Shown: in pieces, positions 12,405 to 45,787 of the stretch | How the letters are laid out: every line of letters begins with the position of its first letter | Position numbering within the stretch: position 1 is the stretch's first letter | Origin: a virus | Direction: 5' to 3' (one strand) | Length of the DNA stretch: 53,009 bases | Virus record (IMG/VR): IMGVR_UViG_3300035698_018814 | Location: 1-53,009 of that record | Position numbers and translations under genes: made by a program | The notes under the pieces: generated by a model | What the model was told of the DNA's origin: nothing | Database searches by the model: none | What the model saw: only the letters and a program-made list of their open reading frames with translations

Positions 12405-12551
12405 TTATGAATTTTTTTTCTTATCTTTATATCTGCCTATAACTTTTCCTCGAGTATCCAGAACAATCCATTCATTTTTTCTGCCATACCATCTGACTAT
12501 ACTATCAAGTAACTTAAACAAATATTCAATAAAAAATTTAGGAAATACCAT
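12405..12551 (-). CDS. hypothetical 48-residue basic protein
   Basis: A short frame starting MVFPKFFIEYLFKLL and ending in a Lys-rich tail, with a GAGG ribosome site. It has an amphipathic or membrane-associated N-terminal helix. It is last in the presumed lysis unit, so a lysis accessory role is conceivable but unproven. Confidence 0.5.
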   Translation of the reverse strand: MVFPKFFIEYLFKLLDSIVRWYGRKNEWIVLDTRGKVIGRYKDKKKNS

Positions 12552-12582
12552 TCCTCTATTTTTATTTTTTTATTGATAATAT

Positions 12583-13254: not shown

Positions 13255-13266
13255 TCTTGTCCCTCT

Positions 13267-14082: not shown

Positions 14083-14090
14083 TTTACACC

Positions 14091-23908: not shown

Positions 23909-25708
23909 TCACGCTGTCAATCTTGATGATTCGGCCAATCCTTGGTCAATGCTAGTATTTAATTCTCTTTCCGCAATTACACTTCCTGCATTATAAATAT
24001 TTATTGTTGGTGTATTACCGCTTTGTCCTGATTCTCCTCCAAATATACTTTGTCCTTTTGGCCCTAATGCAGATGACATTCCATTAATAATTGGCGAAGG
24101 AACAAATGGTTCTATAGGACCTAATTCTCCTTTGAAACTATATTTTTCGTTCCACTCATTCATTTTTGCAAAGACATCTAATATAGGACCTATTGTTTTT
24201 GAAATAGATGCTATCAAATCTGCTACTGCTCCGAGACTAGTACCTAAATCGTCAAAGAATGTTAATATACCATCTTTATTTTCTATTATATTATCAAATA
24301 CAGATTCTAATGCTTCTCCTAAATTTTCAGTTGCAGTTATTTCATCATCACCAAAGAAACCATCAATAAATTCTCCGATAGATTCAGCGGCTATATCAAC
24401 AACTTTTTTCATATCTTCCCAAATTTCAGTTCCATTTTCCTTAATCCAGTCAATAGCAGGTTGTAAATCTTCCCATATTTCAGTTGCTAAATTAGCAACA
24501 CTTTTTACTAATCTCCCCATATGCATGGTTCCATCTTCATCCATAGTAACAAACATAGGCACTACAGTATCAAGAATATAATCAACCATACCCATTAATG
24601 TTTCTGTAATCACTGGCATCTGGTCTCTTATAGTATCAATCCAAACTCTAAATGTTGGAGCTAATTTTTCACCTATTGCTATCCATACCTCAGATGCCGC
24701 ACTCTTAAATTTAATCATAGAACCTCGAAAGGTATCCAATTGCATCTCTGCCATCTCACTTGCTCTGCCTGTTGCACTAACAGATTCGAGCATTGAATCA
24801 AATGTCCTTTCCTCAAGTTTTGCTGCACTAACTAATCCCATTCCTCTTATTCCTAATAATTCTTTTGAATCTGCAAGTGATAAAGTAGATTTTCTAAGTT
24901 CACTAAATATTGTACTTAATCCTAATAAATTACCTTCAGAGTCATGAATAGTAATATTATATTTGTCCATTACTTTTTTCATCTCTGATGTTGGAGCCGC
25001 CAGTTTAGTCAATGCTTGATTTAATCGAGTACCTGCCAAACTTCCATGCATACCAGCATCTTCAAATAAAGAAAGTGCCGCTACTGTTTCTTGTAAACTT
25101 GCTCCCATTAACTTTGCCGTTGGTGCAACATATACCATAGAATTTGACAATCTCTCTGCTGTCTGCTGTGATGATGAAATAGCCGCGGCAAATGTATCTG
25201 CCACTTCTCTTGCCTTATCTGCTTCTAATCCAAAAGCAGAAAGCGTATTAACAACCATGCCTGACGCTGATGCCAAATCAAATTGAGAAGCGGCGGCAAA
25301 GTCAAGGATTGCTTCTGTTGCCTTCATCTGTTGTTCAACAGTGAATCCAGCAGATGCTAAAGAGTATAATGCAAATGCGGCCTCTGTCGCTGAAAATACT
25401 GTTGTCTTTCCTAATTCTCTTGCGAAACCTGAAAGCTGAACCTTTGCTTGTTCAAATTGGTCTCCTACTAATCCTGTAACTGACAATGTATTCACTATTG
25501 CTTGTTCAAAATCAGCAAATGATAGTGTAGCTTTAACTGCCATAGCACCTACTGCCGCACCAAGAGCTAAGAAACCTAAAGCTAATTTTTTGGCGATATT
25601 AAGAGCAAAGCCTCCAAAAGATGCCAAAGATGAACCTACTTTCTTAAGTACACCTGACAATTTATCTTTTGCATTGATTAATACAGTTAAGGTTTCTACA
25701 ACTGTCAT
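23909..25708 (-). CDS. tail tape measure protein
   Basis: A 599-residue protein with the TP901-type core: ATLSFADFEQAIVNTLSVTG, FSATEAAFALYSLASAGF, then AMHGSLAGTRLNQAL-like helices and a late GIRGMGLVSA segment. The hydrophobic segment near residue 30-60 is typical. The length predicts a tail of about 90 nm at 0.15 nm per residue. Located after the G/GT chaperone pair, as in siphoviruses. Confidence 0.9.
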   Translation of the reverse strand: MTVVETLTVLINAKDKLSGVLKKVGSSLASFGGFALNIAKKLALGFLALGAAVGAMAVKATLSFADFEQAIVNTLSVTGLVGDQFEQAKVQLSGFARELGKTTVFSATEAAFALYSLASAGFTVEQQMKATEAILDFAAASQFDLASASGMVVNTLSAFGLEADKAREVADTFAAAISSSQQTAERLSNSMVYVAPTAKLMGASLQETVAALSLFEDAGMHGSLAGTRLNQALTKLAAPTSEMKKVMDKYNITIHDSEGNLLGLSTIFSELRKSTLSLADSKELLGIRGMGLVSAAKLEERTFDSMLESVSATGRASEMAEMQLDTFRGSMIKFKSAASEVWIAIGEKLAPTFRVWIDTIRDQMPVITETLMGMVDYILDTVVPMFVTMDEDGTMHMGRLVKSVANLATEIWEDLQPAIDWIKENGTEIWEDMKKVVDIAAESIGEFIDGFFGDDEITATENLGEALESVFDNIIENKDGILTFFDDLGTSLGAVADLIASISKTIGPILDVFAKMNEWNEKYSFKGELGPIEPFVPSPIINGMSSALGPKGQSIFGGESGQSGNTPTINIYNAGSVIAERELNTSIDQGLAESSRLTA

Positions 25709-26504: not shown

Positions 26505-28061
26505 TTACGATTGGTCATCGAAATTTGATGGTCCTGCCGCATCTGTGGTAACTAAATCCCACTTATAATATCCTGCGGTATAAGGTATAGATATTTCTTG
26601 AACTTTCTCTGGGTCTATATCCATTGGTACTTCACCATACATGATTTCATACAATGTCCATTCCATTTTTTGCGTACTTGGGTTTGCAAGATTCTTTACT
26701 CTAAATACTATTTGTCTTTGCGTTCCTGTATCAGCTGGAACTAATGGGTCGCTTGTACTTCCATACAACTCATCGTAAAATTCCATTCCTGATTCAGTTG
26801 TCATATTCACTCCAAGCGTTCCTGATATTACTTGTGTTGCTGGTATAAAATCTTGCACACTTCTTGTACATGGCACATGAATGAAATCAACTAAGACATC
26901 TCCTGCTGACCATGTATCGCTTGATGAATCAGCTGTAAAGAATACTTTAAGGTTATCAATTAAAGTTTCATCTGCACCAGCTCCTCCAGACGAATCCGGA
27001 GAATCAATATCCACACTGAATTCTTTCCATCCTACAACAGGAACAAAATCATATACATTTGTATTTGTAAATCCTGCTGTACCAAGCACAATATTACAAG
27101 TTGATGTATCAAGATTTGCAAGAGTTCCCGCATCTGCTATATATACCCAAAAGTTCAATCTCTTCCCAGATAAATCAGTTGCATCTAATGAGGTTATATA
27201 TGCAGAGCATTCTACTTCTGAACCAGCATTTTTCACAACATCAAGACTTCCACTTCCAGTTTTATATGTTGTGGTATTATCTGCTGGCGTACAATCAGTT
27301 GAACCTGTCCATGCTGAAGCCAAATCACAATCATCAACTAACCAATGCGGTATAGCGACATTTGTTCCTGCTGTTAGTGCATTCTCAAAGGAAATATTTA
27401 TGCTTGTAAAATCTCCTCTGATTGATGGTGTACCTGTTGTACCATATTCTATTTCACAATTACTCCAATTTAAAGGTGCCTCTGTATTTCTTGTAGCTGA
27501 ACCATTTGTATATTGTGATTGATTTGCGTAAGCAATCTTTGCCATGAATTCAAAAGATATTTCCAGCTTTTCTCCTTTTGCCGCGGTAATATTCATCGTG
27601 TTACAAACGCATCCAGTTACATGATGGGCTCTAATGTTTCCACTTTTATTGTGACCAATCTCTATATTCAAGCTCGGAAGGCAATTGCTACCATAAATAC
27701 TTGTTCCTGTATTCGGAGTAACCCATTTGCTGGCATCATGTGCTACATTGAATTGGTCCATTCCTGCTTTCAATAAAAATAAATCATCAGCACAAGTTGC
27801 TCCCATATCATTAGGTAACCACATTGTTAAACTCACTGTCGGCTCATGCATTCCTTTAGAATACGAACCTACTTTTCTATTTCTTGCATCTCCTATATTA
27901 TGATATCTTTCCAGATTCTCAGTAATATTAACAGATGCATTTCTCAAATGTGACAATCCTATGAATGCCGCACTTGGTTGAGGTCTTCCCTCAAATCCTA
28001 TTGGTTCAAACGCCGCTTCGCAAAGCGCCTCCCAACCATAATACCATGTTGCACACGTCAT
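26505..28061 (-). CDS. major tail tube protein with inserted jelly-roll domain
   Basis: A 518-residue protein. The outer parts (about 1-235 and 400-518) look like a tail tube: SKGMHEPTVSLTMWLPND, EIGHNKSGNIR, KLEISFEFMAKI, and later QRQIVFRVKNLAN. Residues about 240-400 form a carbohydrate-binding-module-like jelly roll (DDCDLASAWTGS, GKRLNFWVYIAD, WKEFSVDIDS, DVLVDFIHVP). It precedes the chaperone and tape measure. A T-rich terminator follows, as expected for an abundant protein. Confidence 0.7.
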   Translation of the reverse strand: MTCATWYYGWEALCEAAFEPIGFEGRPQPSAAFIGLSHLRNASVNITENLERYHNIGDARNRKVGSYSKGMHEPTVSLTMWLPNDMGATCADDLFLLKAGMDQFNVAHDASKWVTPNTGTSIYGSNCLPSLNIEIGHNKSGNIRAHHVTGCVCNTMNITAAKGEKLEISFEFMAKIAYANQSQYTNGSATRNTEAPLNWSNCEIEYGTTGTPSIRGDFTSINISFENALTAGTNVAIPHWLVDDCDLASAWTGSTDCTPADNTTTYKTGSGSLDVVKNAGSEVECSAYITSLDATDLSGKRLNFWVYIADAGTLANLDTSTCNIVLGTAGFTNTNVYDFVPVVGWKEFSVDIDSPDSSGGAGADETLIDNLKVFFTADSSSDTWSAGDVLVDFIHVPCTRSVQDFIPATQVISGTLGVNMTTESGMEFYDELYGSTSDPLVPADTGTQRQIVFRVKNLANPSTQKMEWTLYEIMYGEVPMDIDPEKVQEISIPYTAGYYKWDLVTTDAAGPSNFDDQS

Positions 28062-29781: not shown

Positions 29782-31077
29782 TTACATTCCCTCTAAATCT
29801 CTTGGTCCAATATCTGATTCTCCTGGCATATCAACTCTTTTTATACCGCCATCAGGTTCTTGTAACATCTCAATATATAAATCTCTTGCTGTATTTAATT
29901 CTTCAACAACACTTTCTGAAGATTGTCCTTTACTTCCTTTATCAATACTGAAATTTAATACTTTATATTTAGTAGCTCCACCACCTCTATTAGTATCCAT
30001 TTCTAATAATCCCAAAGCACCAACTGTTTCGCATAATAGAGTAGCTACAGGATTATCTGTTGTTCTTTGATATAATACATTAACAATTCCTGCTGAATGC
30101 TTATTAGTAAATGTTATTACACCATTTGTAGTATCTTCATACCAATTCCTCTTGCTAAAAAATACATCGTCAAAGAATGCATCTCCGGCATTACCATCAT
30201 GAACAAATTCCGCTTGTGCACTCACTGCATTCCACGGAGCAAAAGCATCAACTGTTAATTGTGCCCATGCTTCTGAACCTGTAGTATATGAACTCACATC
30301 TGTGGCTATAAGAGTATCGCTTCCATCAAACCATCTGATTCTTATATAAGCTCCATTACCAGTTCCTGCAGTTGTTGATGTTGTCATAAGCCAAGCAGTA
30401 AGCCTATAAGGTTCTTCTTGACTGACTAAAAATTTATCACTATACCAATATGCATCACTGGCTCCTGTCTTAGTAATCTGACAACTTCTTCTGCCTACTT
30501 TGCTCTGAGCAGTTGCCCAAGTAAAAGTTGCAGTGGAACCTGTATTTGACCAATCAACGATTGTGTCAGTTGATTCATCGCCTCTATCCAATTGTGGGTT
30601 CTGAGGAAGATTACTTCTACTTGCTTCGAGCAATTCCTCACTATCAATCTTAATCATAATAACATCACTGATTGCTCCAACGGCAAGAGTTATGCTTGTA
30701 ATATCTCTTAAATCTACAAATTGTTCCCACTGATAATCCATTCCCCAAATCACTCCTTCGACAAAATTCTGAGCATTTAATAAAGCCTCATCAAGGTCTT
30801 GTTCTGTTAATCTAGCAAGATATAAATAATCACCAGTCACTAATACAGAATCTCCCGGAGCAACGACCATTGCTATATCTCCTCTTGTATAATTCATTGA
30901 ATAATCAGTCACTGTTTGCAAAGCAGAAGCAACATATAATCTTTCGCTTCCAGGAACAACTCTTTTATAAGCAGTGGCAAAATCTTTATTTGTTCCATTA
31001 CCTGTTCCTATTGCTTCATCTACAACACTCTTGCCGAGCCCCGATTTTCTAACCATTTGAATTACTGTACATACCAT
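29782..31077 (-). CDS. connector-region protein with carbohydrate-binding-like domain
   Basis: A 431-residue protein. The N-terminal 130 residues (TGNGTNKDFATAYKRV, ARLTEQDLDEALLNAQNFV) look like a neck or adaptor component. Residues about 165-300 form a jelly-roll of CBM type (GRRSCQITKTGASDAYW, EEPYRLTAWLMT, IRIRWFDGS, DAFFDDVFFSK). The C-terminus returns to a virion-protein style. A second jelly-roll occurs in the tail tube protein. Confidence 0.55.
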   Translation of the reverse strand: MVCTVIQMVRKSGLGKSVVDEAIGTGNGTNKDFATAYKRVVPGSERLYVASALQTVTDYSMNYTRGDIAMVVAPGDSVLVTGDYLYLARLTEQDLDEALLNAQNFVEGVIWGMDYQWEQFVDLRDITSITLAVGAISDVIMIKIDSEELLEASRSNLPQNPQLDRGDESTDTIVDWSNTGSTATFTWATAQSKVGRRSCQITKTGASDAYWYSDKFLVSQEEPYRLTAWLMTTSTTAGTGNGAYIRIRWFDGSDTLIATDVSSYTTGSEAWAQLTVDAFAPWNAVSAQAEFVHDGNAGDAFFDDVFFSKRNWYEDTTNGVITFTNKHSAGIVNVLYQRTTDNPVATLLCETVGALGLLEMDTNRGGGATKYKVLNFSIDKGSKGQSSESVVEELNTARDLYIEMLQEPDGGIKRVDMPGESDIGPRDLEGM

Positions 31078-31087
31078 TTACTTTACC

Positions 31088-31564
31088 TCATGGAGCTATA
31101 TTACAACTATGGGCATAATCATCATTAAACCATACTGCTTTTTCTATTTGTGTCTCGTTCAATATTGCACTACCATTAGTCAATATATGACTTGTTTCGT
31201 CACCTATAACAAATTCAAGAGTTACATAATTATAATCTCCTGCTGTTGCATTGCATTCTATCAAACCTAAATAATCACCATTTGCCAATCCTGTACAATT
31301 GTATTGGTGAAAGCCATTGCTTTGATTAGTCATATTTACATTATTAACTACAGTTGCAAAATTGCTTTGATTCATAACTGTTATATTACAGAAATTACCA
31401 ATATATGCGTCTGCTGGGTTAGTTGTATTTGTATATCTAATTGTTTGAAAACAGTCTGTATCAATAGTTGCTTTATATATTCCTTCTATTCCTAAAGCTA
31501 AAAATGCCAACACAGCTATCAAAGCAATTCCCCCAAAAGTATATAATAATATTTTTTTATTCAT
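31088..31564 (-). CDS. membrane-anchored Cys/Asn-rich protein
   Basis: A 158-residue protein with one N-terminal membrane segment (YTFGGIALIAVLAFLALGI) and an outer domain with several sequons (NTTN, NQSN, NMTN, NCTG) and six Cys. No family is recognised. The outer part looks like a small immunoglobulin-like domain. Confidence 0.65.
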   Translation of the reverse strand: MNKKILLYTFGGIALIAVLAFLALGIEGIYKATIDTDCFQTIRYTNTTNPADAYIGNFCNITVMNQSNFATVVNNVNMTNQSNGFHQYNCTGLANGDYLGLIECNATAGDYNYVTLEFVIGDETSHILTNGSAILNETQIEKAVWFNDDYAHSCNIAP

Positions 31565-31565
31565 T

Positions 31566-34181
31566 CTAATGCACCTCTATACTTTTATTATTGTGACTTG
31601 TTATAAATTTATCATGCGAATATATCATTCCTTTTTCATAAGGTAATGTACCTAAATTTATTGTTAAATGAGTTCCATTAACATAACCATCATTAGGATA
31701 TATTTCTATTGATGATGTTCCTAAATCAGTAACAAACGATGCTTCTGAATCTGAATAATTACCATAAGAAACATAACTATGATTCATAACATAATAATTA
31801 ATACTCATTATATCTGATTTGCTTTGATTAGTCCAGTCAATAGTTATTGTTCTTTTAAAAGTTGAATTTGATGTCTCGTTCATTTGACCACAATCATTTG
31901 TTGTATCCATACTTGATTCATAAAAATTTCCTACACTATTAACACATAACTGATAATCAACTCCTCTTGTACCTAAAAAAGTTATAGGAGCATCTGTTAT
32001 GTCAAAATGATTCTGATAAACATCACTTATCCTTACACCTGACCCTGTTGTATAATCAAAATAAGCCTGATTATATGTTGTTCTGCTATCATCATTATAA
32101 ATAACATTTCCTCTGAAAGTCATATTAGTATTTCCTTTAGCCTGAACATATACTGGATAATCATTTTGTATTTCCAAATCTACTTGTCTTAAATATGCAG
32201 GGTCTGTATATCCTGCTTGAATTGTTAATCCTGCAACTACTGCTGTTGTATAATTAGCTCCTCCATTCCCAACTAAATAATTATCAGATTGTAAAGTGCA
32301 AACTCCACCATAAACTCCTGCTAATACTTGACAACTTAATGCAGGTGGTTGTTCTACATAAATAGTTACTCTTCCTACCCCTAATCCTGGTATTGTTAAA
32401 AGGTATAATGAAAAATCATTTAATCCGGTTGGATTAGTTGCAATCTTATCAGGAAGTGTGTTTATTGTTTCAGTATTGCCAATCGCTGTATTAACAATTA
32501 ATGTTCCCCCTCCAGGATATTGGTCGAAACATAAACCAGCATAACATTTAGGACTCCAACTCTTATAAAATGAACTGCTTGATGAACTATTCCCGCAATT
32601 AATAAAAGTATTATTTTGAATGTTTCCATAAGAATTACCTAAAGCTCCTTGAATTTGATACAAACATTCTTCTCCTGAATTAGTAACATTATTATTATAA
32701 AGATATTGGTTTATCAGAGAGATTGATAATCCAATTGTTGAACAATTAGTGAAAGAATTGCTTTCAAAAGTACTTTCATATCCTCCATCATGGTTCAAAC
32801 AAATCCCATTCACATTCTGAATAAGACTATTCTCGAATCTGCAATAAGCACAACCAAATTCAATTCCTTCTGTTGCATTATCTCTTCCATAAATATTTAT
32901 ATTTGAGAAATTATTATAATCCCCGGCATTTACCCACATAGCATCTCCTGTGTGATTCACATAAACTGTTATATTTTCAACGTCAGCATACTCAACTTGG
33001 TCAAAGACTATCTGATTAGTTGAATTATAAATCATTATATTATAGAATGTTCCCCCATCCTCTCCGTAAGCAGTATTTGATTGCCTTCCGTTCCTAATAG
33101 TGATATTATCAAGATTAATCAGGCCACCATAAGTAATTATATTTCCGTTTGTACTTGTAAGATTATATCCATAACTATCATTTGTATCTGTAAATGTATC
33201 AATATAAATATTACTTACAAAGTTTCTCACATCACAATTTTGAATTGTGACATTTCCACCTTTTCTATAATAATATATTCCATTTCCTGTAGTGCCTTCT
33301 ATGATTACATCCTTGCAATCTATAGTAGTATTAGCTTCCATTATCTCAATAGGACTTCCAGTAAAATAATATGATGACTTTGCAGTTACACTCACAGTAT
33401 TATTGAATGGAATATAAGGTGGATTGTTTGATATAGTTGATTGATACCTCACATATCTCCTTGTAATCACAGCATCCCAATATGCTCTCATTAAAAGTCC
33501 TGTGTTACCCCATGAACCATCTTGCCATTCACCAATCCAAGTATCATTCAAAACATATTCATAATAATTACTTGTGGATATTAAATTAGTGAATGTGTGA
33601 TTGCAAACAGTGTTATTCTCATAATCAACATCAGTGTTATTCAATCCAGGCTTCGACCAATTTATTCCTAATCCTGTTTGATTCCATGTTGCAGAAAGAT
33701 TATTCTCAACTGATGTGTTGATTCTATAACAACTAACTGTATTGCTTACTAATAAATCCCTTTTCAAATCAATGTATAGAAACATATTTCCAAATGTTCC
33801 ACCATAAGCTATGGAATGATTTATATCACCAAATCTTATAATACCTCTTCCTTGATAAGTTCCATCAATACCAATGAGCATTGATGAGTATGGATTATTC
33901 TCATCCCAGAATGTGCCATCTGCTTGCCCTCTTATCCAGTTGTTTTCATCAGCAAGTAATTTAACATCAAGCATGGTCGCAGTACAATCTTCTATTTCCC
34001 AAGTTCCATTATATAAATTACAAGTGTTACCTGTATTATTAATCCATTCAAGGCAAGCACTCATACAATCAAAATCTCCACCGCTTCTTTTAACAGAATA
34101 ATCAACAGCAGAAACAGAGCTACTCATAACTAATACAATCATTGCCCCGATTATTAATAATATCCATATTGTCATTTTCAT
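31566..34181 (-). CDS. secreted right-handed beta-helix glycoprotein
   Basis: An 871-residue protein. The signal peptide (IWILLIIGAMIVLVM, cleavage near VSA-VD) precedes repeated short strands of the pectate-lyase/NosD beta-helix type (DVIIEGTTGNGIYYY, NVTIQNCDVRN, DNITIRNG, FENSLIQNVNG). Such solenoids bind or cleave polysaccharide. The start at 34181 overlaps the previous stop (ATGA). No catalytic residues can be assigned. Confidence 0.7.
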   Translation of the reverse strand: MKMTIWILLIIGAMIVLVMSSSVSAVDYSVKRSGGDFDCMSACLEWINNTGNTCNLYNGTWEIEDCTATMLDVKLLADENNWIRGQADGTFWDENNPYSSMLIGIDGTYQGRGIIRFGDINHSIAYGGTFGNMFLYIDLKRDLLVSNTVSCYRINTSVENNLSATWNQTGLGINWSKPGLNNTDVDYENNTVCNHTFTNLISTSNYYEYVLNDTWIGEWQDGSWGNTGLLMRAYWDAVITRRYVRYQSTISNNPPYIPFNNTVSVTAKSSYYFTGSPIEIMEANTTIDCKDVIIEGTTGNGIYYYRKGGNVTIQNCDVRNFVSNIYIDTFTDTNDSYGYNLTSTNGNIITYGGLINLDNITIRNGRQSNTAYGEDGGTFYNIMIYNSTNQIVFDQVEYADVENITVYVNHTGDAMWVNAGDYNNFSNINIYGRDNATEGIEFGCAYCRFENSLIQNVNGICLNHDGGYESTFESNSFTNCSTIGLSISLINQYLYNNNVTNSGEECLYQIQGALGNSYGNIQNNTFINCGNSSSSSSFYKSWSPKCYAGLCFDQYPGGGTLIVNTAIGNTETINTLPDKIATNPTGLNDFSLYLLTIPGLGVGRVTIYVEQPPALSCQVLAGVYGGVCTLQSDNYLVGNGGANYTTAVVAGLTIQAGYTDPAYLRQVDLEIQNDYPVYVQAKGNTNMTFRGNVIYNDDSRTTYNQAYFDYTTGSGVRISDVYQNHFDITDAPITFLGTRGVDYQLCVNSVGNFYESSMDTTNDCGQMNETSNSTFKRTITIDWTNQSKSDIMSINYYVMNHSYVSYGNYSDSEASFVTDLGTSSIEIYPNDGYVNGTHLTINLGTLPYEKGMIYSHDKFITSHNNKSIEVH

Positions 34182-34678
34182 TTTATCTGAATCATGTATT
34201 GTGCACATTCTAAACTTTGATTTAATACTGAACAATCAGTATTGCTCAGGAATATTCTTGTATCTTCTCCTTCAACATCGAATGAACAATATTCTTTATC
34301 CTTCATACAAGTTACAGGAAAGTCGTAAGGTTCTGATTTTGATAATGTAATTTTTTTGCAAGGTTCTTTTTCATTCTTACATATAAGGATAGCATTGATA
34401 AAATTATCATTAACACCCTCTTGCTTAAATTCTTTCCAACCTGCCTTACAGTAATCATACTTTGCTTTATTCTCTTTGTCATAATAGCATCTTGTACATA
34501 TCTCTAATTTTTTATCACAAGCCTTTACACCATTTATACAATTACTAATGCTTCCTTCATTCTCACAAATGAAAGTCGGCTTCTGGAAATCTATTGATAC
34601 TGCTCCGATAATTATTAGAGCTGTCAATAATCCTCCGATTAAGACATTTACCTTTTTTAATTTTATTGAATCAATCAT
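34178..34678 (-). CDS. membrane-anchored Cys-rich protein
   Basis: A 166-residue protein with an N-terminal membrane segment (VLIGGLLTALIIIGAV) and an outer domain with 12 or more Cys, likely disulphide-bonded, as in small archaeal surface proteins. The start at 34678 overlaps the upstream stop. Confidence 0.65.
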   Translation of the reverse strand: MIDSIKLKKVNVLIGGLLTALIIIGAVSIDFQKPTFICENEGSISNCINGVKACDKKLEICTRCYYDKENKAKYDYCKAGWKEFKQEGVNDNFINAILICKNEKEPCKKITLSKSEPYDFPVTCMKDKEYCSFDVEGEDTRIFLSNTDCSVLNQSLECAQYMIQIK

Positions 34679-36618
34679 GTACATGCACTTCCATCAGTCA
34701 TTACTTTCCATCCGCCACTTTTACAAACACACATATCATCTTCTGATATATCAAAATATTGTGACCCAAGAAATGTTGCACTGCAAGTTTCTGGTGCAGT
34801 ATCAATAGCTTGGAATTTTATCATATCTTTTTGTAAAATAAAATAATCAGTTGCTCCTGCAATATCTATCCTATCAATCACTGGGTCTGTAACAACATTA
34901 TTTCTTGTTCTCTGTAAAGCAATATAAGTATAATTAGTTAAATCACTAAATTGAGTTCCATCAAGTTGCTTACTACAATTACCTCTATTAGAAGGGTTAG
35001 GGAATTGAAGTGTTCCGGAAACCCTAAATCCGTTAGTTGTATCAGTAACTCCTGGAAGTATTTCATAATCATGTGTTGAATTACAATACCAATATAAAAA
35101 TCTTAGATTACGAGATGATGTTGTTGATAATTCAATTGACATACTTGTAAAATTTCCTGTATTGCCAATATAAACTGTGTCATCATCAGCCTCAAATACT
35201 GTAACATCTGCACCAGCATCAGTTACATTAGCAGTGATATTCAAAGCATTATAATAAGCAGAGTTTATTGTATCTGCACTTCCCATGTGAATAATATGTG
35301 TCATTCTTGGGTCTATATCTAACGCATCATTTTCACTATTTTCAGGAAGTCCAATCATCCTCATTGTAATAAATGTTCCTTCACTGTTGTTAAAATTAGT
35401 TCCATCTGCTTCCATAAACATTGCTCTTGCATCAACATTATTGGCATAAACTGAAGAGTACATAAAAGTATTAAGACCCACTATTCCATCAAATCCTTTT
35501 ATATCAGTGTCAATAGTTGCTGATTGATGCTGGTCTGCTCCAGCAGTATCATCAACATGCATACCACTAAATCCTGTTCCATTATCAATATGAACATGGA
35601 AACTTGCTTCTGAATTTTCTCCTATATTTATATGAACAACTCCATTATCTAATGCCATGAACACAGGATGTGGATAAACATAATAACTCATTCCGGTAGC
35701 ATCAACAATTGAATCTCCGCCAGCACTAGCAAAACTTATCCTTATGCAAGTTGAATTAACAAAATCTTCAATCTCTCCTGTTGCATCTGTAAAGCTTGGA
35801 GTTGAACTAATAACTGTAAGTAGCATTCCTTCATTATGAACTCCAAAAGGGTCTGTGCTATCACAAATATATTTTGTTGTTGCATTTAATGTTGCAGTGC
35901 CACCAGTTGATGTTATATTTAAAGCACTACTATACTCATGAGACATAAGACCAGGACCATAAGCAGGAGCAAACGCCATTATCATATTTTCTGTGAACAA
36001 TCTATTTCCGAATATTACATCTCCTGCAGATTTTATTAAATTGTCAAATCCTCTGCTCGGAACTCCTGTACTAACTGAACCACTAATTGAAACATTACCT
36101 TTAATATAATCAATGTTGGATATATTATTATCATTCATATCAAGATTATTCCATATATCAATATCAGAAAGTCCTATAATATTATGAACTGAAACATTCA
36201 CACTATACAATGCTCTATATAATAAACTTGATTTTCCTAAATCGACTGAATTATTAGTTTGTGGAAATATTGTCACATTATAACTAATATTTTCTGAGCA
36301 TTCAAAGTTATAATTAGTACCATCACTTCCTTGTCTGCAACTAACATCATTACTTGAATCTCCTACACTAACATTTTCACCAACTCTAAGATTAACACTT
36401 ACATTCAATGAGCTATTAGTAGAATCATCTTCATAATTCCTTATGAAGATGTCTTGGATATCATTGATGCCCAGATTACAAAATACGTCAGCATAGCCAC
36501 AATTACTGTCGGTCTGAGCACCATTAGGGGTGGTGATAGTGGCTGAAGAATTAAGTGTCATCATAATAAAAAGTAGAATAATCATAAATATTCCTGTTAA
36601 ATGCTTATGCTTAGACAT
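34675..36618 (-). CDS. tail-fibre-like protein with signal peptide
   Basis: A 647-residue protein. A signal-type N-terminus (TGIFMIILLFIMMTL, cleavage near SSA-TI) is followed by fibre-like repeats, DLGKSSLLYRALYSVNVSV and WNNLDMNDNNISNIDYI, typical of tail-fibre or intramolecular-chaperone proteins, and an Asn/Thr-rich C-terminal part. The start at 36618 has GAGGTG upstream and is preferred to 36657. A secreted fibre is unusual. Confidence 0.6.
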   Translation of the reverse strand: MSKHKHLTGIFMIILLFIMMTLNSSATITTPNGAQTDSNCGYADVFCNLGINDIQDIFIRNYEDDSTNSSLNVSVNLRVGENVSVGDSSNDVSCRQGSDGTNYNFECSENISYNVTIFPQTNNSVDLGKSSLLYRALYSVNVSVHNIIGLSDIDIWNNLDMNDNNISNIDYIKGNVSISGSVSTGVPSRGFDNLIKSAGDVIFGNRLFTENMIMAFAPAYGPGLMSHEYSSALNITSTGGTATLNATTKYICDSTDPFGVHNEGMLLTVISSTPSFTDATGEIEDFVNSTCIRISFASAGGDSIVDATGMSYYVYPHPVFMALDNGVVHINIGENSEASFHVHIDNGTGFSGMHVDDTAGADQHQSATIDTDIKGFDGIVGLNTFMYSSVYANNVDARAMFMEADGTNFNNSEGTFITMRMIGLPENSENDALDIDPRMTHIIHMGSADTINSAYYNALNITANVTDAGADVTVFEADDDTVYIGNTGNFTSMSIELSTTSSRNLRFLYWYCNSTHDYEILPGVTDTTNGFRVSGTLQFPNPSNRGNCSKQLDGTQFSDLTNYTYIALQRTRNNVVTDPVIDRIDIAGATDYFILQKDMIKFQAIDTAPETCSATFLGSQYFDISEDDMCVCKSGGWKVMTDGSACT

Positions 36619-36982
36619 AATACACCTCGTAAATATAATCTTCATCTGCTGAAGCATTAGTCACTTCTATTCTAAAAGTTCCAATAAGAGGTATGTCTAC
36701 ACCAGTAGCATATTTCTTATTAACAGCAGATGGTCCTTTGTAATATCCGCCAGATGCTCCTCTTCTAAAAGCTAAGTCAAATGTCGGTTCTGAAGTAGGA
36801 TAATTTTTTGGATGAACTATAATAAATACTGCTTGATGATTTAAATCTGTTGGTACAAGAGTAACATTACCACTACCACTACTTACTGTGAATTCTCCAA
36901 ATTCGTACAATAATGCGGCTTCGGAACTAACTCTCTTCTGTTCATTCAATGGTTTTTTTATTCTTGTTGCAGTTGTTGCCAT
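36611..36982 (-). CDS. small beta-rich protein
   Basis: A 123-residue protein with a beta-sandwich pattern, ending FRIEVTNASADEDYIYEVYY. No signal peptide. It resembles in layout the 122-residue protein at 39150. Both precede a large secreted protein. Probably a virion decoration or a base for the following spike. Confidence 0.55.
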   Translation of the reverse strand: MATTATRIKKPLNEQKRVSSEAALLYEFGEFTVSSGSGNVTLVPTDLNHQAVFIIVHPKNYPTSEPTFDLAFRRGASGGYYKGPSAVNKKYATGVDIPLIGTFRIEVTNASADEDYIYEVYYV

Positions 36983-36992
36983 TTTATTTTCC

Positions 36993-39119
36993 TCATTCTA
37001 TCATAAATGGTATATGAGTGCATTCATCATTAACTTTATATAAGCACCCTCCAAATATTGTATTCGCATATACTCTTACTGAATTATTATCAAGTGTATA
37101 ATAACTTGAATTAATATTTCTGTCTTCTAATTCTTCTGTGAAATTAATTGTCATATTAAATACATCACCTATTGCAATAGCAGTACCATTACCTTCAAAC
37201 AATATAGGTATATACCATTTATCATCATTAAATAAAGGAAGCTTATTTAATCCTAATATTCTCTTTGCCATTTTAGCAAATAAATTATTATTAAATCTAT
37301 CTACTATTGTTATTAATGTTCCATTCTTTCTATCTCTATCTATTATTGTAGTAGTATCAACTATTGGTGTTGGTATTGCTGACAAATTCGCTTCTCTATT
37401 TGAACCGAACTCTATCGTAAATAATACTGAATCATTAATGGCTACACCAATTGGCATCTCAACAATAATATTTGATACATCAGAACTAATAGTATATGTT
37501 GTACCATTAGTAACATTCAATGTTCCTGAACAAACTTTATTGCCTGCCCCACTATCATTAATAACAACAACACATCCTTGCCATAATTCACTTAGCTTAG
37601 TATCTTGACTAACTATTTTATCATCTTCCCCATTAAATATTGCATTGATTTGTTCGTCGCTCATTGAATAATTGTAAACTCTCATATCATCAAGGCTTCC
37701 ATTCCACCAATAAACTCCAAATCCTGCACCGACTTCTAAACTATTTTCTGGGTCAGTTGAAACATCAGCATCAGGATTTCCGTTTGTAGTTCCGTTAAGG
37801 AATAATTGATATGCTGTACCATTATATCTTAATGCTACATGATACCATTCATTTAAAGATACTGGAGTTCCTCCAATAACTGCTGGTGCAATATCAGATA
37901 ATACACCATAAATTACAGGTTCTCCTGCATTATCTACTGTAACAATCGCATGATAAGTTGTCGCATTACCAATAAGCATTACTGCACAAGCTTTTCCGGT
38001 TCCTGCATCAAAACAACTATCACTATTATTTGAATTAAACCATCCCATCATAGTATAAGAATTATTATTAAAATCAAATGATTCATTAACTATAATATAT
38101 TCTCCTAATGTACCTATAAATGAATAAGAACCATTACCATCATGTCCACCAGTAGCATTATAAGTAGCATTAGTGAAAGGGCAATTTCCTGTTCCGTAAT
38201 TCATTGTATAAGTATCATTATCTAATCCTTCGAAAGGCATCATCACTTGTGAAGTATTAGTTGAATTTCTTAACCATGTAATCACAGGAACATAATTGCT
38301 TGAATCATTTATATTATATGATATACTAATATTTTCCAATGTTGTATTAAATTCATAAGATGAAGATATATTAACAGATTCAACTGACGGCGGGTCTATT
38401 AATTTAACTTGAAGCTCTTGGTCCTCATTTGATGGTTTAAAATAAAGCTTTATTTCATTCTCTGCATTATTGATAACAGCTCTATCTAATTTACTACAAT
38501 CATTAAGCAAATCGATTTTAATCTCTCCAAAATTATAACTACAATCATGATATGTACCATCTGGTAAATTTATTTCTCTGAGCTTATCAATAGTCCATAC
38601 AAGATAATATAAAGATTTATCATGTGATTTCCATTCTACTACATACTTCTCAGGCATCTGCTTGATATCTTCAGTATGCTTCGGAAAATAAAAGTCTTCC
38701 CATATATCTCCTGCAACTTCACCGCTTGTACCATATTTAAAATAATCTATTCCTTTACTAACAACTAATGTATCTGGTCTGTCATCATAGTCCAGCTTTG
38801 ATGATTTGAGCTTCCTATTAAGCTCTTTATAAAAATTCTCAGGATAATAACATCGCTTAGGAGAATTTTCATAAGTTCTTACTTCGCCACCATCTCTCTC
38901 ACAATTATTTTCTTGATAAGAATATTTAATCGTAGACCAAGTTCTATGCATGAAGACATCCCATTCAGCTCTTGCAATAGCATCTCCGTCTTTATAAATA
39001 GTAGTATGGTATCTATCAATAGACCACATGAATGTAGTACCACCAAGGATAAGAGTTAGAATTATAATTAGTCCTATTGCTTTCTGTTTAGTAGATATGT
39101 TCAAATCTGCCATGTTCAT
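36993..39119 (-). CDS. membrane-anchored surface protein with LamG domain
   Basis: A 708-residue protein with a N-terminal membrane segment (AIGLIIILTLILGGTTFMW). The outer part includes a DPPSVESVNISS segment as in the 1629-residue protein, and a LamG domain (about 330-500: GTLGEYIIVNESFDF, YTMMGWFNSNN, LNEWYHVALRYNG, WNGSLDDMRVYNYSMSD). LamG domains commonly bind sugars. It is probably a host-binding or cell-surface protein. Confidence 0.65.
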   Translation of the reverse strand: MNMADLNISTKQKAIGLIIILTLILGGTTFMWSIDRYHTTIYKDGDAIARAEWDVFMHRTWSTIKYSYQENNCERDGGEVRTYENSPKRCYYPENFYKELNRKLKSSKLDYDDRPDTLVVSKGIDYFKYGTSGEVAGDIWEDFYFPKHTEDIKQMPEKYVVEWKSHDKSLYYLVWTIDKLREINLPDGTYHDCSYNFGEIKIDLLNDCSKLDRAVINNAENEIKLYFKPSNEDQELQVKLIDPPSVESVNISSSYEFNTTLENISISYNINDSSNYVPVITWLRNSTNTSQVMMPFEGLDNDTYTMNYGTGNCPFTNATYNATGGHDGNGSYSFIGTLGEYIIVNESFDFNNNSYTMMGWFNSNNSDSCFDAGTGKACAVMLIGNATTYHAIVTVDNAGEPVIYGVLSDIAPAVIGGTPVSLNEWYHVALRYNGTAYQLFLNGTTNGNPDADVSTDPENSLEVGAGFGVYWWNGSLDDMRVYNYSMSDEQINAIFNGEDDKIVSQDTKLSELWQGCVVVINDSGAGNKVCSGTLNVTNGTTYTISSDVSNIIVEMPIGVAINDSVLFTIEFGSNREANLSAIPTPIVDTTTIIDRDRKNGTLITIVDRFNNNLFAKMAKRILGLNKLPLFNDDKWYIPILFEGNGTAIAIGDVFNMTINFTEELEDRNINSSYYTLDNNSVRVYANTIFGGCLYKVNDECTHIPFMIE

Positions 39120-40901: not shown

Positions 40902-41387
40902 TTATATAGTTAATAAAACTTTTTTAATCAATGGTGTTGCTGATGCCGCAGAAACTGCTTCAAGGGCTATTGCTACAGGTTTTCTGAAGTCAGTATTGAA
41001 ATCATCTTCAGCCGCCCCAGTTCCAGTTGATGCATGAGCTAAACACTGCCCATCCCAAGTTGTAACTGCGTTGGTATCACCAACCATTAATCTCTCTCCA
41101 GGAACAATAGCTGTCGTATAAGTTCCTGCATCATCTCTGATACAATATACTCTTGCTACTCCTCCAACTTGAACAGAAACTGTTTTAGCACTTGCCGCTG
41201 ATGTTGACGCTACTGATGTCGCCGCAACTCCAATAAATTTTATTGTTGCTGCCGCTGAACACAGAATTGCCGCACCTGCTGAATTTAATTCCATAAGCTG
41301 ACCTACGGAAATTGCCGCGGTTATACTTGCAGTATCAAATCCAACATATACAGATTCCTGAACTCCTGCTCCTATTCCTTCTGCCAT
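40902..41387 (-). CDS. capsid decoration protein, copy 2
   Basis: A 161-residue Ala/Val/Thr-rich beta protein. It starts MAEGIGAGVQESVYVGF, as in the neighbouring paralog, and ends KKVLLTI, with shared segments TTAIVPGERLMVG and DFNTDFRKPVAIALEA. Located next to the capsid gene like the DUF2190-type capsid cement proteins. The start at 41387 is set by the ribosome site and the paralog. Confidence 0.75.
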   Translation of the reverse strand: MAEGIGAGVQESVYVGFDTASITAAISVGQLMELNSAGAAILCSAAATIKFIGVAATSVASTSAASAKTVSVQVGGVARVYCIRDDAGTYTTAIVPGERLMVGDTNAVTTWDGQCLAHASTGTGAAEDDFNTDFRKPVAIALEAVSAASATPLIKKVLLTI

Positions 41388-41397
41388 CTTCATTCAC

Positions 41398-41880
41398 CTA
41401 TAAAGTTAACAACACTTTTTTAACTACAGGTGTTGTTGCAGCAACTGAAGAATTTGCTTCAAGGGCTATTGCTACAGGTTTTCTGAAGTCAGTATTGAAA
41501 TCAGATGTTGTTCCAGCCGCCGCTGTTGCATGAACTAAAACTTGTCCATCATAAGCTGACGGTGAATCTTCTCCAACCATTAACCTTTCACCAGGCACTA
41601 TTGCTGTTGTATAAGTTCCTGCACTATCATACATAGTATAAACTCTAGCCACACCAGCAACTTGAACGCTGATTAACTCTTGGCTTGCAACTGTTCTTGT
41701 TGCTACTCCTGAAGCCGCTACACCAATCATTTTGATGGTAACTGCCGCAGAGCATAATATTATATCTCCTGAGGCGTCCAATTCAACTAACTGACCAACT
41801 GCAATTGCAGTTGTAAGACTTGATGTCTCAAAGCCAACATAAACTGATTCTTGGACTCCCGCTCCTATTCCTTCTGCCAT
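41398..41880 (-). CDS. capsid decoration protein, copy 1
   Basis: A 160-residue paralog of the next gene, with the same start and the segments TTAIVPGERLMVGE and DFNTDFRKPVAIALEA. The two copies may occupy different sites of the shell, or one may replace the other. They lie between the scaffold and the capsid gene. Confidence 0.75.
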   Translation of the reverse strand: MAEGIGAGVQESVYVGFETSSLTTAIAVGQLVELDASGDIILCSAAVTIKMIGVAASGVATRTVASQELISVQVAGVARVYTMYDSAGTYTTAIVPGERLMVGEDSPSAYDGQVLVHATAAAGTTSDFNTDFRKPVAIALEANSSVAATTPVVKKVLLTL

Positions 41881-41894
41881 TTTATTTTTACCTC

Positions 41895-42542
41895 TTAATC
41901 TTGTACAATAATATCTCCTTCAATTTCTGAAGGGTCGACATTAATGTTTGCTTGTGCGAAAAGTTTCCTTCTTGCTTCAATAACATCTGTGTCAGCTTCG
42001 TCACCAAGTTCACTCATCTTCTGAGCTTTAGTCAATGGTTTCTTTCCTTCTAACATCTTTTCAATTTTGCCTAAGTCTTCACTATGAAGCTTCTTATAAA
42101 TCTCTGTCTTATCAGCTACTCCTTCTTCGCTAACAATTCCTAGCTTATGTTCTGTCTTCACAATGCCTTCGACTCTATCTTCATGTTGCTTATTCTGAAG
42201 CGTCTTCAATTCTTTACTATCTTTTTCAAGAGAACTAATTTTACTTTTCATTTTCTGTAATTCAATATCTTTATTTTGGATATCAAGCATTGCTTCCTTC
42301 ATCATATTCTTAACTTCAGGGTCAGAGAATTTTTGACTTTCAATTTTCTCTGTTCTGTTCAGCTTTACCTTCTCACTATCTGCGTGTTCTTTCTTTATTA
42401 ATTTGAAAGATGCACTCTTCAGAAGAGTTGTTAGACTAGCCTTTTCAGGAGCCTTCATATCAGATTTTACTACCTTAGAATGTGCCAGCTTAACAATGTC
42501 TTTAAGCTTCATGCTTGGTAGCGGATATTTTTCTTGTGTCAT
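41895..42542 (-). CDS. scaffolding protein candidate
   Basis: A 215-residue Lys/Glu-rich protein with a long coiled coil (about 75-125: LDIQNKDIELQKMKSKISSL), directly upstream of decoration and capsid genes. This composition and place fit an assembly scaffold that the protease encoded just upstream would degrade. It has its own promoter region. Confidence 0.7.
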   Translation of the reverse strand: MTQEKYPLPSMKLKDIVKLAHSKVVKSDMKAPEKASLTTLLKSASFKLIKKEHADSEKVKLNRTEKIESQKFSDPEVKNMMKEAMLDIQNKDIELQKMKSKISSLEKDSKELKTLQNKQHEDRVEGIVKTEHKLGIVSEEGVADKTEIYKKLHSEDLGKIEKMLEGKKPLTKAQKMSELGDEADTDVIEARRKLFAQANINVDPSEIEGDIIVQD

Positions 42543-42713: not shown

Positions 42714-44666
42714 TTATGTATTATGAGATTTAATTGATGCATTCTTTACTTCAGGGAATAATAAGATGCTGAGTTCGTCATAAATCATTCTATTGGCTGT
42801 GGGTGTCGGCTTAGCATTATTGTCCATTTCCCAAACACCTGCACTGACCTTTGATAATTCTCCATTCCAAACAGCCGCCGCGGTTTCATAATCATATATA
42901 AGACCTGAATATTTTAATTGTTGAGCTTCTGCGTCCCACCACACTTCATCTGTAATAAAACCAGACACATCAAGGAATGTCTGTCCATGCTCTTTAATAT
43001 TTTTCTTATTAAGTAATATTCTTTGGTATTTTAACGCATGAGCAGATTCCTCAACCACCTCAGCAGGATAATTAACTCCATGATGCACACCTGGTTCGAA
43101 TGCTACACCTTCAACAGGAAGAGGTAATTCAAATCCTTCTGGAATGACACCATTATCAGGAAATTTATTTCTGCTTACAGATTCAAATCCTGGAAGCTTA
43201 CTACCATGAGTAGGAATATCTGCCTGCTTCTGAGCTTTAATACTCATACTGAATTTAACAAATTTCATCAGGCCTAATTTCTTTCTGAGCTTATTAACAG
43301 GAGCATTGGTATTTGTCGATAAGGATAACATCTTCAAGCTCACTGACAGATTGCTCTTATTAATGAATGATGACATTGGTTGCTTTGATATCAAGCTTGA
43401 CAACTTCTGCTTACTTGCAAGATACTGACTTGCATCTACAATCATGTCTCTAATTAAATCATTACTCTTTGGTTTGCCATCCCACCATCTGAGCTTCTTA
43501 GGAATTTTATCCTTCCATTCTTTTGGAAGAGCTGATGTTCCTGGTTCAGGTAACCATCCTTCTTTCGTTCCTTCACCAAGAATATAAGGTGTCTGGTCGT
43601 AAGGTTTATGAATCTCCCAAACTCCACCATAACTTTTCTTCGCCATATATCTTCCTGTATGAGCTTTGCCATAAAGAAAATATTCGTGGAAGTCTTTTCC
43701 TTGTGCGCCAAATTCAACTTGCCCTCTATCATAAGTTTGTACCTTAACTGTCTTGGAATTATTATCAACGTAAATATAAGCGTCCATTGTACTACCTTCA
43801 TCTCTTCTTCCTTCATCAGTTGGAACAGATGCTCCCTGCATTCCAGGTTCATTAGTGAACATACTCGCCATCTTTTTATTCTTGATGTCATGTATTCTCC
43901 ATCTAATACAATCATCACCTAACTTATATCTTAAATCTTTAAACATCCCATTGCTGTGTTGTTGTAGAGTAAATTGTGTATTCTTTTTCTCTGAAGGTAT
44001 AATCATGAGAACATCTTTTGGTTTATATGTTGATTTTATAATCTTCTTTACTTTCTTTCTTGTTGCAGTTGATACTTCAGCTGGTAATGTTGATGTGCTC
44101 ACATTATCTTTTTTCACAACTGGTACTGGTGCTTGTAATAATATTACATCATTATCAATCCAGACATCTTGCCCTTCTTTTATTCCCTCAGGCACAGGAT
44201 ATAATTCTATTACTCCATCCGATTCAACGAGAGCAGAATTTTCCGACTTCACAGCATTATTATATATTCCAAAAATTGCTTTCATGCCTTCGCCAATTGG
44301 TAAAGTAACTAAGCTCTTCTTGTCAAACATAATCATATTCCTTTGTTTGAATGAATAACTTTCACCATCATAATCCATATTAGAAGTAACAAATCCTTGA
44401 TTCGCCAAATAGTTTTTTGCTGAACTAATGCTCTGATATTTATTTCTGTCAACAACAATCTTCTGAATCACTCGACTTCTTTCTGTTTCGTGCTGTTGCT
44501 TCTTAGGTCGCCAACTACCTTTTGAATCTAACGCTTCCGCTTTATTAGGAGTTATATTATATAATTTATAGAATATTTTCGACGCTACTTCTGTATTCTT
44601 ACTGTCTTCCCAATCTGGGTGTTGCTTTAATAAAGCTTTCTTGATTGCTTCGTATTCTGCTGACAT
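42714..44666 (-). CDS. prohead protease (XkdF/S78-type) fused to a LigD 3'-phosphoesterase-like domain
   Basis: A 650-residue protein. The C-terminal domain (about 505-645) has the prohead protease pattern: EGVAFEPGVHHGVNYPAE, HALK..., His560 in IKEHGQTFLDVSGFITD, then IYDYETAAAVWNGELSKVSAGVWE with Ser608, and ELSILLFPEVKNASI. Residues about 230-355 resemble the LigD phosphoesterase domain: FTLQQHSNGMFKDLRYKL, TYDRGQVEFG, FLYGKAHTGRYMAKK, GVWEIHKP. The first His (237) is kept, but the second His of the LHYDFRLE signature is lost. Residues 400-500 are a linker. Placed upstream of the scaffold, as a maturation protease should be. Confidence 0.72.
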   Translation of the reverse strand: MSAEYEAIKKALLKQHPDWEDSKNTEVASKIFYKLYNITPNKAEALDSKGSWRPKKQQHETERSRVIQKIVVDRNKYQSISSAKNYLANQGFVTSNMDYDGESYSFKQRNMIMFDKKSLVTLPIGEGMKAIFGIYNNAVKSENSALVESDGVIELYPVPEGIKEGQDVWIDNDVILLQAPVPVVKKDNVSTSTLPAEVSTATRKKVKKIIKSTYKPKDVLMIIPSEKKNTQFTLQQHSNGMFKDLRYKLGDDCIRWRIHDIKNKKMASMFTNEPGMQGASVPTDEGRRDEGSTMDAYIYVDNNSKTVKVQTYDRGQVEFGAQGKDFHEYFLYGKAHTGRYMAKKSYGGVWEIHKPYDQTPYILGEGTKEGWLPEPGTSALPKEWKDKIPKKLRWWDGKPKSNDLIRDMIVDASQYLASKQKLSSLISKQPMSSFINKSNLSVSLKMLSLSTNTNAPVNKLRKKLGLMKFVKFSMSIKAQKQADIPTHGSKLPGFESVSRNKFPDNGVIPEGFELPLPVEGVAFEPGVHHGVNYPAEVVEESAHALKYQRILLNKKNIKEHGQTFLDVSGFITDEVWWDAEAQQLKYSGLIYDYETAAAVWNGELSKVSAGVWEMDNNAKPTPTANRMIYDELSILLFPEVKNASIKSHNT

Positions 44667-44801: not shown

Positions 44802-44933
44802 TCAATTACCTGATTTAATTCCTTTCATCTTCTGACACTTAACAGCTTTTATTTGTCTCTTCTCTTCTTTTTTAATATCTATGACTATGATTTCTCCTTC
44901 CTCTTCTTTAATTGTGTTTATTACTAATACCAT
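44802..44933 (-). CDS. hypothetical 43-residue protein
   Basis: A short Lys/Glu/Ile-rich frame starting MVLVINTIKEEEGE, with a strong GGGAGGT site and a TAATG overlap with the minor head gene. No family is recognised. Confidence 0.55.
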   Translation of the reverse strand: MVLVINTIKEEEGEIIVIDIKKEEKRQIKAVKCQKMKGIKSGN

Positions 44934-45787
44934 TATGAACCTCCCTCTGTTATAACCCAGGTACATCTACAATTTGGATGAACTGGAATTATTCCTTTAG
45001 CTTCATTGATTGTATAAATTCTTCCATCAATTAAATCCATACAAATAGGACAAGTCCTTTCATCACCAGCAACTACACCTTCAACTTTTGTTATGCTATT
45101 CTGAGCATAAGTATTTAACCTTCCAAGGTTAGTAGCTCCGATTGTTTCTGTTCTAGCCATCATCTCAGCTCTGACTTTAGCACTAATAACTCTGATATAA
45201 CCTGCCCTTTCCAAATTACCTTTTGAATCGAATGACGGTTGAACATATGTATGTAAATCTTCAAGCTGTGGCCTTAATTGTCTTGCAATCTCTTTTGTTC
45301 CTTTTCCATTCCTTATACCATCAGCCACACTATATTTTAATCCCTGAGTTTGAGCTTCTGTGAATGCTTTCGCTTCAATAAATGAATATGCTTCAAGGGC
45401 CATAAGAGCTTCTGTATCAATATCACCGACAGCCATACGACTGACCTTTAGTTTAACATCTGCTTCGGCTCTCTCTTTACCCAGTTTATAAGCCTCCAAT
45501 AAATTATTGAATAATATCTTTCCTAATGGATTAGAATCAATATTAACACTGTTAATATTTTTTATTGGGTCACTACCTATTTGTTTCTTTAAAGATTTCT
45601 TAACTTTAGTTTGGAATTTTCTGATTTCCCTGTAAAGAGAATTTTCAAGAGGAATAGTATTAATTTGTCTTGGGTCGGAAACCTTAGTATCAAATTTAAT
45701 GACTACTTCCTCATATTTAATTTCCTTAAATTTATGATTATGCGGCATATCACAACCACATTGTACCTTTATTATTTTTCCTTTCAT
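44933..45787 (-). CDS. minor head protein (Mu F / SPP1 gp7-like)
   Basis: A 284-residue protein with the family's C-terminal signature: RAEMMARTETIGATNLGRL, then VEGVVAGDERTCPICMDLIDGRIY and VHPNCRCTW (Cys in CPIC and NCRC, probably metal or disulphide). The N-terminal half is helical. Such proteins bind the portal and are packed in the head. It precedes the protease and scaffold, as usual. Confidence 0.85.
   Translation of the reverse strand: MKGKIIKVQCGCDMPHNHKFKEIKYEEVVIKFDTKVSDPRQINTIPLENSLYREIRKFQTKVKKSLKKQIGSDPIKNINSVNIDSNPLGKILFNNLLEAYKLGKERAEADVKLKVSRMAVGDIDTEALMALEAYSFIEAKAFTEAQTQGLKYSVADGIRNGKGTKEIARQLRPQLEDLHTYVQPSFDSKGNLERAGYIRVISAKVRAEMMARTETIGATNLGRLNTYAQNSITKVEGVVAGDERTCPICMDLIDGRIYTINEAKGIIPVHPNCRCTWVITEGGS

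Follow-up and report, generated by a model that had tools for sequence, protein, structure and literature searches.

Assembly of tailed viruses, the most abundant known viruses, is taken to be wholly cytoplasmic. Genes for apparently secreted or membrane-anchored proteins among virion genes therefore raise the question of where their products go. The window analyzed here is an entire viral record of 53,009 bases. Between its capsid and neck genes, at 31088-39119, the first-pass annotation had described five proteins of 158, 166, 647, 708 and 871 residues with a signal peptide or membrane anchor. Are these proteins exported, do they belong to the virus, and do they end up on the virion or on the host cell?

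The virion operon and its export-start proteins

The window record is a tailed virus, with terminase, portal, tape measure and tail genes present. The late genes are almost all located on the minus strand. Genes without a family match were named by position and by eye.

2077-3591: terminase
13267-14094, minus strand: papain-like C1 peptidase, without signal peptide; a C1 peptidase is found at the same place in virus G002
14091-15608, minus strand: tail hub-type protein (phrog_52, E 4e-12)
23540-23902, minus strand: Dit-like small tail protein; its stop codon overlaps the start of SP1629
23909-25708, minus strand: tail tape measure protein (phrog_1533, E 6e-70)
26505-28061: tail tube-type protein
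29782-31077, minus strand: neck-type protein on the downstream side of the block; its N-terminal part resembles 12961-13785 of locus L184
40030-40887, minus strand: major capsid protein (MCP) on the upstream side of the block (PHROG major head protein, phrog_1650, E 5e-17)
40902-41880: two paralogous small capsid-type proteins
41895-42542: scaffold-type protein
44933-45787: MuF protein
47810-49228: portal-type protein

The terminase is located at the left end of the window and the portal at the right end. A terminal repeat was looked for at the window ends (1 and 53009), and none was found. The genome in this record may be permuted or almost complete. A cluster of eight tRNA genes and an HNH endonuclease occupies 469-1836. 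The tRNA-Phe(gaa) in it (1216-1298) has an additional hairpin of about 10 nt (GTCGTAAGAC) beside the variable loop, which is unusual in a class I tRNA. The order of hub and C1 peptidase is common to the window and G002 (L210). Two small proteins with membrane segments (12583-13254) come after the C1 peptidase, and the three are possibly a lysis cassette directed against a proteinaceous cell wall.

The host is likely to be an archaeon. This assignment rests on sequon use, on the tRNA-Tyr (short variable loop, C1-G72 pair), and on the terminase and a 650-aa head-module protein, both of which are similar to proteins of ANMV-1, whose hosts are uncultured archaea. The 650-aa protein (42714-44666) matches an ANMV-1 protein annotated as an ATP-dependent DNA ligase (phmmer E 2e-12), at 35% over about 100 residues, a partial stretch of the ANMV-1 protein. 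The match suggests a ligase/LigD-like domain at a head-gene position in two viruses. A search of genome contigs with the 708-aa protein gave a single match, a LamG locus from Patescibacteria.

All five ORFs described earlier are present in the block on the minus strand, and their lengths are exact when the starts are chosen to fit the operon spacing. Their placement was also borne out, with the MCP and two small genes upstream and the neck-type gene downstream. The two largest export-start proteins, of 1629 and 1014 residues, had been missed; they are located in the tail module (15610-23540). Sequons are N-x-S/T motifs, and the expected counts are from shuffles within each protein.

36993-39119, minus strand: SP708, N-terminal membrane anchor (core 14-25) and LamG lectin domain; 29 sequons against 9.9 expected
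36611-36982, minus strand: 123-aa protein without export signal or sequon excess
34675-36618, minus strand: SP660 (647 aa from the fitted ATG), cleavable-looking signal peptide SSA/TITT; 20 sequons against 10.9
34178-34678, minus strand: SP168 (166 aa), N-terminal anchor and Cys-rich domain (CYY..KYxYCxxGW) with 12 Cys
31566-34181, minus strand: SP889 (871 aa from the fitted ATG), cleavable-looking signal peptide VSA/VDYS; 35 sequons against 17.5
31088-31564, minus strand: SP158, N-terminal anchor and small Asn-rich outer domain; 9 sequons against 2.9
18651-23540, minus strand: SP1629, N-terminal anchor and LamG, between the Dit-like gene and the hub; 92 sequons against 34.4
15610-18654, minus strand: SP1016 (1014 aa), cleavable-looking signal peptide VVA/DYDD, Gly/Asn-rich; 39 sequons against 15.2

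The outer domains of the five block proteins had been described as LamG, beta-helix and fibre-like. LamG is clear in the 708-aa protein (PF13385), and LamG matches in the exported proteins of the window reach E 1e-16, for this protein, and 1e-14. The beta-helix match in the 871-aa protein is weak (PF13229, E 0.005) and below the cut-off. The fibre-like class of the 647-aa protein was assigned by eye from its LGKSSLLYRALY motif, and the outer domain of SP158 is Ig-like by eye only. An uncharacterised membrane-proximal domain lies between the anchor and LamG in SP708. PDB sequence searches with three window proteins gave no match, and the predicted structure of the 166-aa family has a pLDDT of 38. 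The LamG, beta-helix and fibre motifs make the label 'adhesin' plausible for the block proteins. The 123-aa protein is guessed to be of the cytoplasmic virion or decoration type.

Within the operon for virion morphogenesis, the genes for the exported proteins abut their neighbors or overlap them by 1 to 4 nt. At 23540, the Dit-like gene ends in an overlap with the start of the 1629-aa gene, and 4-nt overlaps join the 1629/1014-aa, 647/166-aa and 166/871-aa pairs. Codon usage in the seven genes closely follows that in the virion genes (r=0.987). These features bear on the idea that host surface genes were captured recently, or joined to the record by mis-assembly, with sequons that are inherited from the host and have no viral role. 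LamG, beta-helix and DUF2341 domains are indeed also found in cellular surface proteins. However, the gene overlaps, the codon usage and the reappearance of such genes in further viral contigs, as well as in the circular methanogen virus vir515, all stand against this idea, and we consider it the least probable of the explanations, hardly to be credited. The first-pass annotation had itself named mis-assembly as one way it could be wrong; on the same three grounds mis-assembly is judged unlikely.

Export signals and sequon excess

Export segments were defined by hydropathy and the -3/-1 rule. Each of the five block proteins has the hydrophobic start attributed to it, a single N-terminal segment behind a positively charged beginning, with a best 19-residue Kyte-Doolittle mean of 2.1-2.6 at the N-terminus. 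By the simple rule, three of the seven exported proteins (647, 871 and 1014 aa) have plausible cleavage sites, and the other four (158, 166, 708 and 1629 aa) resemble N-terminal anchors that stay uncleaved. Hydropathy gave no C-terminal membrane segment in any of the seven, and no second segment in the five block proteins. Inspection by eye of the seven starts revealed no lipobox ([LVI][ASTVI][GAS]C) where the signal segment ends. Starts of this export type are rare: among the 1883 ORFs in the comparison loci that reach 120 aa, 46 have one, and six of these 46 are at least 300 aa long.

The Asn/Thr richness noted earlier exceeds composition in the form of sequons. Pooled over the seven window proteins, 227 N-x-S/T motifs are present against 92 expected (z 16.7). 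The excess is individually significant in six of the seven, all with p of 0.004 or lower (p<=0.0005 for the 158-, 871- and 708-aa proteins; 0.004 for the 647-aa protein). The exception is the 166-aa protein with its 12 Cys, which shows no excess. N-x-T is preferred over N-x-S (2.78 versus 2.07 times expectation). The control motifs are flat in the seven proteins, both the reversed [ST]xN (z 0.8) and the shifted N-xx-[ST] (z -1.7), and N-[ST], N-xxx-[ST] and D-x-[ST] likewise show no excess. A composition artefact was rejected on the reversed and shifted controls. In the window, 21 virion and packaging proteins that lack a hydrophobic start contain 44 sequons against 44.3 expected. The protein encoded at 46171-47196, beta-helix-type by eye and without a signal peptide, has 3 against 3.3, and the fold is thus not the cause of the excess. 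We also rejected the view that hydrophobic starts in phage proteins generally come with such an excess, since in other loci the ratio is 1.23 (z 1.9).

An excess of N-x-S/T is a signature of translocation combined with N-glycosylation, and N-glycosylation implies a life outside the cell. Judged from these motif statistics, the surface proteins of the window are very probably exported and N-glycosylated. It could instead be proposed that the hydrophobic starts are virion parts for entry or assembly, such as membrane-penetrating or trimer-core helices, and that the proteins stay in the cytoplasm. Known tailed-virus fibres are assembled there, and some tail proteins contain hydrophobic segments; the tape measure of the window scores 1.9. 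However, this proposal leaves unexplained a sequon excess that is limited to the proteins with hydrophobic starts, as well as the precise gain of signal peptide and sequons in the vir515 family described below. We regard it as very unlikely. The first-pass annotation had made its reading depend on translocation, and the confinement of sequon selection to these proteins, together with its recurrence in independent viruses, argues for it.

Related viruses and signal-free counterparts

IMG/VR peptide searches with the portal, MCP, tape measure, terminase and small capsid protein revealed no close relatives, and the terminase alignment is too divergent for use. A search with MuF led to 80 loci, one of which (L038) has the same signature. 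The circular Methanosarcinales virus vir515 (BK063672), reached through a tape measure search, is a third case. MCP searches from L038 and vir515 gave 113 further loci. Among them, sequon-rich proteins with signal peptides are found in L174/G001 (the same record as L038), L177/G002, L175, L184/G003, L203 and L197. These relatives were chosen through a screen based on the signal, and their pooled z of 27 is a description and not a test.

The exported proteins recur in a few positions. They follow the MCP in G001, G002 and L175, and lie between portal/MuF and the protease in L203 and L197. The order tape measure, Dit-like protein, exported protein and hub is common to the window (1629 aa), G001 (1403 aa; 65 sequons against 29) and G003 (1477 aa; 93 against 35). 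In G002, a 974-aa protein of the same kind lies between tape measure and hub (62 against 24). All four viruses thus retain this tail slot.

Domains are also shared. The 166-aa window protein shares homology with the N-terminal part of the 848-aa exported protein of L197 (E 9e-9); it also matches a 124-aa signal-peptide protein of L193 (E 9e-7) and, more weakly, a 104-aa protein of L177. LamG is found in exported proteins of L197 and L177, a beta-helix in one such protein each of L203 and G003, and DUF2341 in G001. A second anchor domain consists of a membrane segment and about 130 residues, ending near DPTW. It is common to G001 SP771, G001 SP1403, G002 SP974 and L203 SP1197, which occupy capsid, tail and portal-protease slots.

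Other proteins were noted in these loci. L038 encodes, at 11857-13617 between two exported G001 proteins, a 586-aa protein with repeats of about 15 residues (KTYTIDSLIxK). In vir525 (BK063673, Methanosarcinales), two signal-peptide proteins of 231 and 277 aa are located near the portal gene (L217 46370-47911). Both have a mild sequon excess, and the 231-aa protein contains DUF7507/DUF11 Ig-like repeats.

Signal-free proteins of the same classes provide the contrast. The vir515 group encodes, immediately after the MCP, a protein with a signal peptide and with 5-7 sequons where about 1.5 are expected. Its homologues in L119 and L156 are also encoded directly after the MCP, and they lack the signal peptide and have 0-1 sequons. 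They begin M-ART/M-ARA exactly where the vir515-group signal peptide ends. The vir515-group protein is a member of the small capsid-adjacent family phrog_24894 (E 3e-21), with the same post-MCP place. The family profile aligns from residue 27 only, whereas the members from the vir515 group have sequons and a signal peptide in addition; the window proteins gave no match to phrog_24894. The model of the vir515-type protein has a pLDDT of 72.5, while the other four models are near or below 41. Its best matches are small uncharacterised tailed-phage proteins (BFVD E 2e-5), and the match to the HFTV1 turret chain is weak (E 0.05, TMt 0.41). The sequon-poor homologues without signal peptides are a further point against host capture.

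Three more comparisons agree with this pattern, and they share slot, domain or motif; full-length homology between proteins with and without signal peptides is confined to the vir515 family. The L179 MCP is 71% identical to that of L038. Between portal/MuF and the protease, L179 encodes fibre- and GLUG-type proteins without signal peptides (sequon z -0.6 to 1.0), which are as rich in Asn/Ser/Thr as the signal-peptide proteins of L203 in the same slot (z 6.8 and 4.0). One L179 protein and one L203 protein share an LTxETDP motif. A DUF2341 protein without signal peptide at the end of the tail module of vir524, a Methanomicrobiales virus, has 7 sequons against 6.2, in contrast to the excess in the anchored SP1403 of G001 given above. 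The LamG protein after the hub in L176 lacks a signal peptide and has 7 against 4.3, no excess. Together, these comparisons suggest that signal peptide and sequons come and go together on proteins of the virion-surface class. Signal-free proteins of the same classes in other viruses also suggest that the exported proteins are normal virion-surface proteins that have been re-routed, and not unrelated inserts.

Destination of the exported proteins

The seven proteins combine traits of two classes. As in exported N-glycosylated archaeal proteins, an N-terminal signal or anchor is present, and six of the seven have sequons above composition. As in fibre, receptor-binding or decoration proteins, the genes are located in the virion operon and encode lectin, beta-helix or fibre modules. 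Members of the latter class are cytoplasmic without an export signal, unlike the window proteins with their hydrophobic N-termini and sequon selection. We nevertheless consider the fibre/decoration class the probable one for the exported proteins.

T5 Llp, TP-J34 Ltp and HK97 gp15 are phage superinfection-exclusion membrane proteins that act at the surface of the infected cell. They are small and not fibre-like, whereas the window proteins reach 1629 aa, are encoded in the virion operon and are sequon-selected. A lipoprotein of the Llp/Ltp type was rejected on inspection for the lipobox. Pleolipovirus spikes are anchored at the C-terminus. Membership in this group was rejected as well, as there is no C-terminal hydrophobic segment and tailed-virus genes are found throughout. 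Pleolipoviruses are enveloped and tailless, unlike the window virus with its tail genes and N-terminal anchors. The likeness is that the spikes of HRPV-1 and HFPV-1 are exported, membrane-anchored, glycosylated receptor-binding proteins of archaeal viruses (PMC10384203).

HFTV1 resembles the window virus as an archaeal tailed virus with capsid-borne surface proteins, whose turret genes are inside the virion operon (PMC12494034, PMC9973310). There is evidence that it makes head-first contact with the S-layer (PMC9973310, PMC12494034). Its turret head combines galactose-binding-like and deacetylase-like domains, instead of the LamG and beta-helix found in the window. In HFTV1 no protein combines an export start with sequon excess, and in the text of the HFTV1 paper 'signal peptide' is absent and 'glycosyl' has one match. 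No clear signal was found in HFTV1, psiM2, Drs3, ANMV-1 (31.6 of 38.5 kb) or HVTV-1 (first 50 kb); ANMV-1 has one 202-aa candidate with 5 sequons against 1.8. In the tailed virus HRTV-DL1, some structural proteins are reported or predicted to be glycosylated (PMC10384203). The open-access literature gave no report of virion-module proteins in tailed viruses with signal peptides and sequon selection.

The best explanation overall, which we hold with about even confidence, is that fibre, lectin or decoration proteins are re-routed through host secretion, most likely onto virions. Surface proteins encoded in the virion operon of a tailed virus of archaea would be exported by Sec, with a cleaved signal peptide (647, 871 and 1014 aa) or an uncleaved anchor (158, 166, 708 and 1629 aa). 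Outside, they would be N-glycosylated, presumably by the host oligosaccharyltransferase AglB. The exported subunits would wait at the outer face of the membrane or below the S-layer until they are attached to capsids and tail tips at cell lysis or during membrane passage, giving glycosylated receptor-binding fibres. We infer AglB glycosylation, the division between cleavage and anchoring, virion presence, the mounting route and receptor binding. Known archaeal tailed viruses exit by lysis and without lipid (PMC10384203). With cytoplasmic assembly and such an exit, exported proteins could become part of virions only through a step that has not been seen, and the contact with the exported protein at or after lysis that mounting needs is speculation. 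The lack of such proteins in HFTV1, whose head turrets are the known counterpart in archaea, also weighs against mounting.

Alternatively, the proteins may remain on the infected cell, membrane-anchored or held by the S-layer, and remodel its surface. They could block superinfection or re-adsorption of progeny, or attach the cell to surfaces or other cells; their place in the operon would then reflect late expression and receptor-binding parts in common with the virion. The four proteins that look like uncleaved N-terminal anchors are consistent with this alternative, and N-glycosylation, which implies existence outside the cell, agrees with it too. The best argument is the sharing of the DPTW-type anchor domain across slots in G001, G002 and L203, whose common denominator would be the membrane. 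One anchor domain serves both a capsid slot (G001 SP771) and a tail slot (G001 SP1403, G002 SP974), and membrane display fits this better than two attachment sites on the virion. However, no signal-free candidate tail fibre was seen in the tail module of the window, and virions would need some other receptor-binding part. Four viruses retain the slot between tape measure and hub, and the capsid-adjacent family has members with and without signal peptide at the same position. These three observations slightly favor virion mounting over display on the host surface. We judge that the exported proteins are carried on virions with roughly equal chances for and against, and display on the host cell is a possible but less probable outcome.

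If virion mounting is true, the rule of cytoplasmic assembly would be broken, and virions would be completed outside the cell and coated with glycans. A Caudoviricetes virion would then bear host-made N-glycans on Sec-exported appendages. If the proteins are instead displayed on the host, they would represent a viral program that rebuilds the archaeal cell surface with virion-type proteins. The sequon-excess test is a simple finder of exported proteins in uncultivated archaeal viruses, and it hints at an archaeal host where other evidence is absent. By the sequence evidence, the trait is a repeated feature of several groups of archaeal tailed viruses, and is found in the tail module too. We tentatively propose, at somewhat less than even confidence, that some archaeal tailed viruses complete their virions from the outside, with exported, N-glycosylated appendages attached at or after egress.
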